Made by a program: the position numbers and the translations under genes
Source of the DNA: Shewanella seohaensis
Lineage (GTDB): Bacteria; Pseudomonadota; Gammaproteobacteria; Enterobacterales; Shewanellaceae
DNA length: 64,000 bases
NCBI RefSeq assembly: GCF_025449215.1
Contig: NZ_CP104900.1
Location: 2,728,001-2,792,000, forward strand
Reading direction: 5' to 3'
The notes under the pieces: model-generated
Seen by the model: only the letters and a program-made list of their open reading frames with translations
Database searches by the model: none
What the model was told of the DNA's origin: nothing
Shown here: piece after piece, positions 8,650 to 63,550 of the stretch
Position numbering within the stretch: the stretch's first letter is position 1
Layout of the letters: each line of letters starts with the position of its first letter

Positions 8650-9291
8650 TTACTCTTCGGGGTAGACCTTTTCCTTAAATTCGCAAAGATCCTCAATAAT
8701 ACAGCTGCCACAGCGGGGTTTGCGAGCCAGACAGGTATAGCGGCCATGCAGAATAAACCAGTGATGCACATCGACTTTAAATTCGGCGGGAACAACCTTT
8801 AACATGCGCTCCTCGACTTCGACCACGTTTTTACCGGGGGCGAATTTAGTGCGGTTTGCCATGCGAAAGATATGGGTGTCGACGGCGATGGTCGGCCAGC
8901 CAAAGGCGGTATTGAGCACCACGTTAGCGGTTTTACGACCAACGCCAGGAAGCGACTCTAACGCCTCTCTGTCCTCTGGGACTTCACCATTGTATTTTTC
9001 AATCAAGATCTCACAGGCTTTAATCACATTGATGGCCTTGTTGTTATACAGGCCAATGGTCTTGATATATTCCTTTAATCCATCCACGCCTAAGGCATAA
9101 ATACTGTGGGCGGTATTGGCCACTGGAAACAGTTTATCGGTCGCCTTATTTACGCTCACATCGGTCGCCTGCGCCGATAAAGTCACTGCCACCAGTAATT
9201 CAAAGGGACTGGAGAAATTCAGCTCGGTTTCGGGTTTGGGATTGTTTTCGCGAAGGCGGGTGAGGATTTGGATGCGTTTTTCTTGATTCAT
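8650..9291 (-). CDS. nth: Endonuclease III
   Basis: 213 residues, close to the 211 of E. coli Nth. It is a DNA glycosylase/AP lyase removing oxidised pyrimidines in base-excision repair. The helix-hairpin-helix LPGVGRKTANVV carries the catalytic lysine, VDTHIFR the catalytic aspartate, and the C terminus has the four-cysteine iron-sulfur loop (CLARKPRCGSCIIEDLC). The start chosen is the ATG at 9291 (MNQEKR). It is the last gene of the rnf operon, 66 bases after rnfE, the same arrangement as in E. coli. Confidence 0.97.
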   Translation of the reverse strand: MNQEKRIQILTRLRENNPKPETELNFSSPFELLVAVTLSAQATDVSVNKATDKLFPVANTAHSIYALGVDGLKEYIKTIGLYNNKAINVIKACEILIEKYNGEVPEDREALESLPGVGRKTANVVLNTAFGWPTIAVDTHIFRMANRTKFAPGKNVVEVEERMLKVVPAEFKVDVHHWFILHGRYTCLARKPRCGSCIIEDLCEFKEKVYPEE

Positions 9292-9357
9292 AGTGATCCT
9301 TGTAAGCAGTGGGTTTAACGCTAAACCCACCACTTAAGCTGTTATCTCAATAAGGGC

Positions 9358-10056
9358 TTAACTCACTTTGGTGATCCGTGCCCGTGTCACGCTTGGTTGT
9401 ACAGCCGCTTCGGGTTGACGCTCTTTAAGCTTTTTATCGATAACGTTTTTCAGGGCGATAAGTAGGCCCATCACAATAAAGGCGCCGGGCGGTAACATCG
9501 CCAGCAGGAAGGGGGTATCGACTTGCCATACCTGAATCGTTAAGGCTTTAGCCCATGGGCCGAGCAGTTGGTCGGCGCCATCAAACAGGGTGCCTTGGCC
9601 GAGAATTTCGCGCGTGGCGCCAAGAACCGCTAAGACTAAGGTAAAGCCAAGCCCCATCATCAGTCCATCGAACGCAGCGCTAAAGGCATTATTACGGGAG
9701 GCAAATGCTTCTGCGCGGCCAATGATAATGCAGTTGGTCACAATCAGCGGCAAGAAGATCCCTAAGGACAAATACAGGCCATAGGCGTAGGCGTTGATCA
9801 GCAATTGCACCGCCGTCACCAGCGCGGCAATGATCATCACAAACACGGGGATACGGATTTCCTTAGGCACATAGTCACGTACCAACGAGACTAAAATGTT
9901 TGAGCCTATCAGCACCAACATAGTGGCGACCCCAAGCCCGAGGGCGTTGGTGAGGGTGGCCGTTACGGCTAACAGGGGACACAAGCCCAGTAATTGCACT
10001 AAGCCAGGGTTGTTTTTCCACAGTCCTTGCCAGGCAATTTCGCGATAATTAGTCAT
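9358..10056 (-). CDS. rnfE: Electron transport complex subunit RnfE
   Basis: 232 residues with about six transmembrane helices. It belongs to the RnfA/RnfE/NqrDE family of paired inner-membrane subunits and carries the conserved [10 protein letters not shown] segment in the first part and [16 protein letters not shown] in the middle. It forms part of the ion-translocating electron-transfer complex, which in E. coli (Rsx) also reduces SoxR. The ATG at 10056 overlaps the end of rnfG by 8 bases. Confidence 0.96.
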
Positions 10057-10687
10057 GGTTGGCCTCACAATTCAGAGGTTGGCTGAAAATCTCTGCTTGA
10101 TGCTGAGTAAAGTACCATACGGCGCGCTTAACCGCTTTCACATAGGCGCGTGGTGTGATTGTCGCGCCGGTAAATTGGTCGAAATCACCACCGTCTTTTT
10201 GCACTAGCCATTGCTTATCATCTTCTGATTTAAGCACTTTACCGACGAATTGCGTCACCCAGTCGGATTTACGTAAATCGATTTTATCCCCAAGGCCAGG
10301 GGTTTCTTGGTGGGCGAGTGTGCGCACGCCTAATACTTCACCTTGGGTATTGATGCCCACAATCAGCTTAATATTGCCGTTGTAACCATCGGGGGCAATG
10401 GCTTCTAGGGCGATAGCAACGGGTTTACCAGCAGCGGTAGCGATATAGGCGGGCATGGCATCTTCGGTGCCGAGCGCCTCTTTATCCTGCAACAGAGTGC
10501 ATTGTGCGGTCAGCTCATTGTCATGGAGCTCATCAGGGATCAGCTGATGCAGCACGCGCATCAATTCTTGCTGCTCTTGCTGCTTAATTTTGTCTAAGGT
10601 CTGTTGATTGATCACTGCGACTAAGCCCGTGCAGAGCAGGGCAAACAGGGCAAGTAGCAGACCATTTTTAATCATTGGATTATTCAC
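10049..10687 (-). CDS. rnfG: Electron transport complex subunit RnfG
   Basis: 212 residues. An N-terminal transmembrane anchor is followed by a periplasmic FMN-binding domain. The covalent flavin attachment motif is the TGAT in [14 protein letters not shown], near residue 178. The start is a GTG at 10687, supported by GAGGA six bases upstream; no better ATG has such a site. It lies between rnfD and rnfE and overlaps rnfE by 8 bases. Confidence 0.95.
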
Positions 10688-10740
10688 GTTTATTCCTCAA
10701 GAATCTTTGTTCAAGCATGCTTGATTCTTTTGCCACAGGC

Positions 10741-11790
10741 CTAGGGCGCTGAATGGCCATAGGTGCGCGGACGCACATAGTAGTCAATAAATGGCGCGCA
10801 CAGGTTTGCGAGCAGCACGGCAAAGGCGAAGGCATCGGGGTAGCCACCTTGGGTACGAATGACATAGACCAAGACGCCAATTAATGCGCCGAAAATTAAA
10901 CGGCCACGCGGACTGGTCGCCGCGGTGACGGGATCGGTCGCAATAAAGAAGGCGGCGAGCATGGTCGCGCCCGAGAATAAATGGAACAGTGGGCTTGCCT
11001 GTGTATCGGGCGACAGTAAAAAGCCAATGCTCGATGCCACAAATAATCCCGCCAATACGCCGGTGCTGATATGCCAACGGATGGCTTTTAATTTAAGTAG
11101 CACTAAACCGCCAGCAAGATAAGCCAAATTGACCCAAAACCAACCTACGCCAGTGCCGCCATCGAAGATGCTTTTAGCCATACTCTCAGTGGTGGTGAGC
11201 CCTAAGGACAGATCGGTTTTGAGGGTATCGAGTGGTGTCGCCATACTGATCCCATCGATACCGAGGCGGAATTGTTCCATGCCACCATGGGCGCCGACAT
11301 TGAAGATCAATTGCAAACTATCGATCACACTTGGGGTATTGAGTGCAACCGTACTTGGCGCAATCCAACTGGTCATCTGCACAGGGAATGAAACCAGCAG
11401 TAACACATAGGCGGCCATCGCGGGGTTGAACAGGTTATGGCCTAGGCCACCGTAGAGGTGTTTGACGATAACAATCGCAAACACTGTGCCCATAACGATC
11501 ATCCACCAAGGTGCCAGTGGCGGGATCGCAACCCCGATTAAGATCGCCGTCAGCATAGCGCTGTTATCGCTTAAGCTTGCTTTGATGCTGCGGTTACGCA
11601 GTTTCATCACCGCGGCTTCACAGCTTAGGGCAACGATAATCGCCAGTAACACTTGAATAAGTGTGCCCCAGCCGAAAAAGGCGCATTGCAACACAAGGCC
11701 GGGTAACAAGCATAAAATGACCCTTTGCATAACCGTTGAAGTATGCAAATTACGGGTAACATGGGGTGATGAGGCTATTTTAAACGCCAT
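10741..11790 (-). CDS. rnfD: Electron transport complex subunit RnfD
   Basis: 349 residues, polytopic, with about nine membrane helices. The covalent FMN site is the threonine in [12 protein letters not shown], near residue 190, as in NqrB/RnfD. Further family marks are [15 protein letters not shown] and [13 protein letters not shown]. It forms part of the membrane core of the Rnf complex. Fifty-three bases separate it from rnfG and eighty from the corrected end of rnfC. Confidence 0.96.
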
Positions 11791-11870
11791 TGTGATCCCT
11801 TTTATCTAATCTTGAGTCACTGATTTTTAAGCTAATCATTTTTAAAGCACTGAGGTTAAAACCCGCAGTG

Positions 11871-62727: not shown

Positions 62728-62812
62728 TGGTGGAGGGAGAAGGATTCGAACCTTCGAAGGCTGAGCCGTCAGATTTACAGTCTGATCCCTTTGGCCACTC
62801 GGGAACCCCTCC
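62728..62812 (-). tRNA. tRNA-Tyr(GTA), middle copy
   Basis: 85 bases with encoded CCA, GTA anticodon. Identical to the third copy. Confidence 0.97.
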
Positions 62813-62852
62813 ACGAATATCTCTTTATAGTATCGCTAATTGTTAGTGCAAA

Positions 62853-62937
62853 TGGTGGAGGGAGAAGGATTCGAACCTTCGAAGGCTGAGCCGTCAGATT
62901 TACAGTCTGATCCCTTTGGCCACTCGGGAACCCCTCC
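62853..62937 (-). tRNA. tRNA-Tyr(GTA), promoter-proximal copy
   Basis: 85 bases with encoded CCA, GTA anticodon. It lies 16 bases after the -10 element at 62953-62958. Confidence 0.97.
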
Positions 62938-62952
62938 TCAATTGCGGCGGCA

Positions 62953-62981
62953 ATAGTAGTCAGAAACGTTTGGCATGTAAA
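62953..62981 (-). promoter_or_regulatory. Sigma70 promoter of the tRNA-Tyr cluster
   Basis: On the minus strand TTTACA and TACTAT are 17 bases apart and followed by a GC-rich discriminator (TGCCGCCGC). The same -10 hexamer is used by the tRNA-Asn promoter. Confidence 0.75.
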
Positions 62982-63062
62982 GTCTAAATATGAAAATTTT
63001 CCTAAAGTTCTGGTTCAACTGGTCGATTAACTAACAACGAGTTGTTTTAATGATGTTTTTTT

Positions 63063-63550
63063 ATGCAGATCGATGTTCCTTTAATCAACGAAGCCCAAAT
63101 TGGCTCCCGCTTAAATGCGGCAATCGAACACAACAGGCGAGGAGAGTTCGCCCTGTTGCTGTCGCTATTGTCTGCAGACGCGAGGGACATGGCGCAGTTT
63201 CAATGGCAAAAAGAGCTCGATAATGCAGAAAAATTACAACGTCAGTTCGAGTTACCCCCAAGCAAGCGCTTGTGGCGGATTTATCGACGGATAACAAGGT
63301 TACCGACAATAGTGCTGTTTTTGCTGAGCAAGGCGCGAGGGCGTTTCAACTGCAACAGGCATTGCGCCCAGAGGCATTAGTGATCCGCGGTGCTGAGCCT
63401 ATCGCGATGGCCGAAGCCTTAAGCAATTGCGATCTCACCACACGTCTGCGCCAACGTGGCCAGTTGCCATCCCCGAAAATGGACGTCATGCATTTTGCCG
63501 ATCAACTGGCGATTCAACGGAACTTAGTGCCGTTATTGGCCAGCGCCTAA
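63063..63550 (+). CDS. VC2046/SO_2500 family protein, one frameshift
   Basis: 162 residues after repair. The first part (MQIDVPLINEAQIGSRLNAA, FALLLSLLSADARDM) and the second (GARAFQLQQALRPEALVIRG, DVMHFADQLAIQRNLVPL) lie in different frames, joined by one more C in 63255-63259. The family is conserved in Shewanella and Vibrio; the function is unknown. The start has no clear binding site. Confidence 0.7.

Follow-up and report, generated by a model that had tools for sequence, protein, structure and literature searches.

Reading-frame breaks in host and Mu-like prophage genes of a Shewanella seohaensis chromosome record very probably reflect under-called homopolymer runs

INTRODUCTION

Assemblies built from long reads have an error profile in which bases are deleted after runs of four to five identical bases, as described in the Kastor (PMC12007338) and Homopolish (PMC8011154) papers, the former of which also places a small share of the losses at non-repeated bases. 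The second system of relevance here is a phage, vB_SspS_MuM16-1 of Shewanella (MZ568827; PMC8541194), in which the annotated terminase, protease, major head, tape measure and virion-associated genes are intact. It is the nearest phage record to a prophage in the chromosome of Shewanella seohaensis, with which it has a Mu-like gene order in common.

The DNA studied here, referred to as the window, is a stretch of 64,000 nucleotides (bases 2,728,001–2,792,000) of the single 4,751,888-base contig of the S. seohaensis record (NZ_CP104900.1, hereafter G000). An initial annotation of its letters had described 13 reading-frame breaks in host and phage genes, each repairable by one added base in a homopolymer. 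We compared the window and further blocks of the same contig with relatives, and consider it very probable that the breaks arose as errors in the assembly consensus, of the long-read (nanopore-type) kind, in which homopolymer runs of about five or more bases were called one short.

RESULTS

G000 is estimated to be 99.83% complete and 2.47% contaminated. The contamination value exceeds that of most of the relatives listed, and marker genes that are split and counted twice may inflate it. The nearest relative compared, G015, is 90% identical to the window across the rnfC region and lacks the Mu-like prophage, so that comparison with its empty site gives the prophage extent as 19547–57451; homology of the flanks stops at ∼19547 and restarts at 57451, with TAACAAGTAGTAAC on either side. 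Six tRNA-Asn genes are arrayed at 17891–18562 of the window and three tRNA-Tyr genes at 62513–62937.

Related prophages were found in named Shewanella contigs. Compared with vB_SspS_MuM16-1, the window prophage differs in sequence (82.7% identity, covering 41% of the query) and in the cargo that separates the virion morphogenesis gene from the protease. In this variable slot (39196–41821) lie an NdpA-like gene and a gene for a protein of 400 residues that has no Pfam or PADLOC match; MuM16-1 instead encodes a regulator there, together with an RNA-directed DNA polymerase. The prophage also encodes a DprA-family protein (28753–29784; Pfam DNA_processg_A) that scores 221.5 bits with the PADLOC model ShosA, and upstream of it lies a 190-residue ORF (28250–28822) without a Pfam match. 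These two genes may be cargo that forms a defence pair of the ShosTA type.

All 13 breaks are present in the record, with open frames and runs at the positions that the initial annotation had given (12175 to 63255). In order to compare the same loci in relatives, the two pieces of each gene were searched separately and we asked whether they adjoin in one open frame (halves test). Nearly all relatives lacked the breaks: of 155 locus tests covering nine genes, 153 showed the pieces in a single open frame. Only loci holding both pieces are counted, and some of them, coming from the same contig, are not independent. The exceptions were locus L076 for the terminase and locus L097 for the tape measure.

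Among the host genes, rnfC (11871–14491, minus strand) has four breaks, all in the repetitive C-terminal region (∼12175–12970). Four isolated one-base gaps relative to G015 were found there, the cycling of the frame is visible by tblastn with two-frame matches to G015, and for the first break one open frame was seen in 14/14 loci. The SO_2500-type gene, so named in the initial annotation (63063–63550, plus strand), is broken near 63255; it shows an isolated one-base gap and two-frame matches relative to G015, and is a single open frame in 8/8 relatives. The Rhomboid-family gene (60143–60759, minus strand), previously called a rhombosortase, has a Pfam Rhomboid match and one isolated one-base gap relative to the 205-residue G015 frame. 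Its break would fall within about the first five codons, and with so few residues involved and G015 as the basis of comparison this is a weaker case. Another shift, flagged at 62823, was rejected as belonging to a spurious ORF between the tRNA-Tyr genes.

The broken prophage genes all lie on the plus strand. Phage-locus ORFs match the window in two frames for the terminase, protease, major head subunit, tape measure and the genes at 53106 and 27718. The terminase large subunit gene (33094–34754) is broken near 33500 and is one open frame in 21/22 loci, with an offset of −1 in 21/21 matches; for the major head subunit (43093–44012, break near 43500), one open frame was found in 28/28 loci and the offset was −1 in 28/28 matches. 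The head maturation protease gene (41901–43093) is broken near 42130 and open in 20/20 loci, and the tape measure gene (46301–50226) is broken near 48205 and open in 20/21. The gene at 53106–54058, which takes the name virion-associated protein from the MuM16-1 annotation, is open in 20/20 loci and is indeed broken near 53196–53205, but the run of three to which the break had been assigned is not the sole candidate, as a run of five lies just upstream.

The NdpA-like gene (39519–40558; PF04245 NA37) is broken near 40305–40315. The scan of viral contigs confirmed no relative of its protein, and a genus-wide search gave, besides the window, distant homologues of ∼26–34% identity. One open frame was found in 8/8 distant chromosomal homologues, and two chromosomal homologues gave a two-frame match. 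The endolysin gene (30177–30742) is a weaker case, in which a break near the 3′ end is suggested by protein length, since relatives have 185–190 residues (among 12 listed) compared with 219 for the window frame. In addition, the endolysin stop overlaps the start of the next gene in the MuM16-1 annotation, and such a stop is present in the window in another frame.

Thirteen is not the full tally. A 14th break, overlooked earlier, lies at ∼28070–28095 in a prophage gene of unassigned function (27718–28151), and further breaks could hide in stretches such as 28152–29783 and 39196–41821, which had no homologues in the sets used. The gene at 27718 has a DUF4124-like N-terminus that falls under the Pfam cut-off, a run of six beside the break, two-frame matches in 10 loci and one open frame in 14/14 loci. 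We rejected a candidate break near 29861, seen in two loci of one contig, because it is probably explained by one ORF extending further upstream.

As had been claimed, one base too few is present at each break: the offsets seen in phage and homologue matches (−1, −4, −7, −13, 2 and 11) all equal −1 modulo 3. No repair by removal of a base is needed in the window, where isolated gaps inside G015 reading frames amount to 6 losses and 0 gains. Arithmetic returns whole codons for the repaired endolysin (188 residues), terminase (553), NdpA-like protein (346), protease (397), major head subunit (306), tape measure (1308), the product of the gene at 53106 (317) and the SO_2500-type protein (162). 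The value of 874 residues for RnfC is right when the gene end indicated by the tblastn match is used (hand arithmetic), and the 205 residues of the repaired rhombosortase equal the length of its G015 counterpart. The statement that the breaks lie at runs of 3–6 identical bases holds once relatives are compared, but frame arithmetic alone does not place them there; because 23% of random positions (three blocks) touch a run of at least three and the frame overlaps are long, location at such a run is weak evidence by itself.

A nucleotide-level control was carried out on seven blocks of G000 aligned with G015 (363,612 aligned bases, of which 322,697 lie in G015 reading frames). Within these frames we counted 65 isolated one-base losses versus 6 gains; a gap was excluded if a second gap lay within 25 columns, if its flanks matched poorly or if it was close to the end of an alignment. 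Coding losses occurred in every block, from 3 to 20 in each. Outside coding sequence, 41 losses versus 34 gains were counted, a near-balance of the sort that true indels would be expected to add. A run of at least four in G000 is touched by 57/65 coding losses, compared with 7.5% of random positions (three blocks); the 8/65 that touch no such run, together with the 6 coding gains, are points against under-calling. In 26/65 coding losses the run of the relative is only one or two bases long at the gap, and 22 of these 26 touch a G000 run of at least four. At the minority of sites where the relative's run is not the longer one, a substitution in the lineage would first have lengthened the run, which was then under-called.

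At the protein level, G015 ORFs were compared with three G000 blocks (304 kb; 147 ORFs, 52,214 residues), giving 23 frame breaks, of which 21 have an offset of −1, one of 5 (equal to −1 modulo 3) and one of +1. Six breaks flagged in G015 were rejected, since they share coordinates with G000 breaks and, in our own reading, are those breaks viewed from the broken side.

Shortening rose steeply with the length of the run. Counting only runs with three matching flanking bases on both sides, A/T runs of four, five, six, seven and eight bases in G015 were one base shorter in G000 in 1/1,509, 4/621, 17/177, 6/29 and 4/6 cases, respectively, and G/C runs of four, five, six and seven in 3/513, 5/68, 6/7 and 1/1. 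In the reverse comparison, G015 was one shorter in 4/1,512, 2/619, 2/162, 2/25 and 0/2 A/T runs of four to eight and in 0/510, 0/63 and 0/1 G/C runs of four to six. Any run that differed between the genomes in its flanks or in its own bases was left uncounted; taking G015 as the reference, this removed, for instance, 101 A/T and 15 G/C runs of six. The forward and reverse counts differ for A/T runs of six (Fisher p 0.0006); several other classes are sparse, and taken alone A/T runs of seven and eight together (0.052), G/C runs of five (0.059) and G/C runs of six and seven together (0.22) give Fisher values above 0.05.

The ribosomal RNA genes provide evidence the other way. A pure run-length rule predicts losses there, and the comparison was meant as a decisive error test; since the 16S and 23S genes (nine copies of each per genome) showed no excess of gaps in G000, the result was counted against under-calling. 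Gap columns confined to G000 numbered three and those confined to G015 numbered 13, each affecting a single copy; the remaining gap columns are shared or represent extra bases in a few copies. The 13 G015-only columns lie among loci L114–L148. A 23S run of six C has no gap in 18/18 copies, compared with 6/7 comparable G/C runs shortened elsewhere. Sparing of the rRNA genes may result from better basecalling or polishing, and hence the rRNA criterion may not be strictly defining.

Genes with central functions are also split in G000. DNA polymerase III alpha, a single frame of 1,169 residues in G015, is found as two adjacent pieces; MreB is also split, although intact in G015, other G000 matches being far weaker; and PriA, likewise whole in G015, is split by two breaks as seen by tblastn. 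DNA polymerase III alpha and MreB are needed by the cell. Nine of the 22 listed broken G015 ORFs were named by family search. Among these nine, NadA, a FadE-type acyl-CoA dehydrogenase, FadR, MsrP and an NCS2 permease are also broken, as are an RmuC-like protein and a decarboxylase that both fall under the family cut-offs. In the window, the claim that host and phage are equally affected was upheld, with 6 breaks per 21,286 host bases versus 8 per 32,572 prophage bases covered by homologues (Fisher p 0.79, or 0.78 with 7 prophage breaks if the NdpA-like gene is omitted, as it is not among the covered bases). Since needed genes are split and the two rates are alike, the breaks are not concentrated in dispensable genes.

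DISCUSSION

The breaks are very probably a fault of the record and not a biological feature. In the mechanism that we propose, homopolymers from about five bases upwards would be called one base short in an assembly left uncorrected with accurate reads; a nanopore-type platform is what we infer if the runs were under-called. Each under-call inside a gene would shift the frame by one base, and run-rich genes, such as rnfC with its repetitive tail, would be struck several times. Because such a process ignores function, host and prophage would be hit alike.

Alternatively, the prophage and some host genes could be pseudogenes that arose by natural one-base deletions. Natural slippage likewise favours runs, prophage genes are often dispensable, and at any single site taken alone, reads would be needed to decide. 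We nevertheless regard true decay as very unlikely, as host and phage genes are broken at similar rates, DNA polymerase III alpha, MreB and PriA are split, and the excess of losses over gains in coding sequence (65:6) contrasts with the ratio outside it (41:34). The attribution to sequencing under-calls rather than gene decay made in the initial annotation is thus borne out by the genome-wide bias towards losses, the dependence on run length, the intact relatives and the splitting of needed genes.

It is more doubtful still that the broken genes use programmed ribosomal frameshifting or transcriptional slippage. In other phages, programmed shifts occur close to tape measure genes, and bacteria are known to show slippage at runs, but a shift that is used would be conserved, whereas the relatives have one frame in nearly all locus tests; programmed frameshifting is therefore contradicted at the testable sites. 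A related reading, to which we give even less credence, is that the short runs are real and that slippage lets the cell read hundreds of genes that lack one base, among them that of DNA polymerase III; since rRNA is beyond rescue by frame slippage, its sparing would then reflect selection. Least probable of all is a mutator lineage prone to losing bases from runs: defective mismatch repair also gives run-length dependence, but mutS, the one repair gene checked, is open (888 residues, no stop), needed genes are split, and coding gains do not rise alongside losses.

Under-calling of runs has consequences for the use of the record. Extrapolating the 65 coding losses (363,612 aligned bases) to the whole chromosome gives ∼850 one-base losses in genes, so that claims of gene loss, pseudogenes or prophage decay drawn from the record are unsafe. 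Our results therefore matter as a quality flag: the record as it stands is not suited to judging which genes work, and other findings of broken or oddly short genes in G000 are to be discounted.

As in the nanopore-only assemblies treated in the Homopolish paper (PMC8011154), indels at runs shift frames, produce an excess of pseudogenes and are detectable from homologues, although the present case differs in that the rRNA genes of G000 are not affected. The long-read errors that fragment genes in the Kastor paper (PMC12007338) are also mostly deletions after same-base runs, as here; Kastor checks raw reads too, whereas G000 was judged from sequence comparison. The fault is one already described in PMC8011154 and PMC12007338, and it is ordinary as biology.
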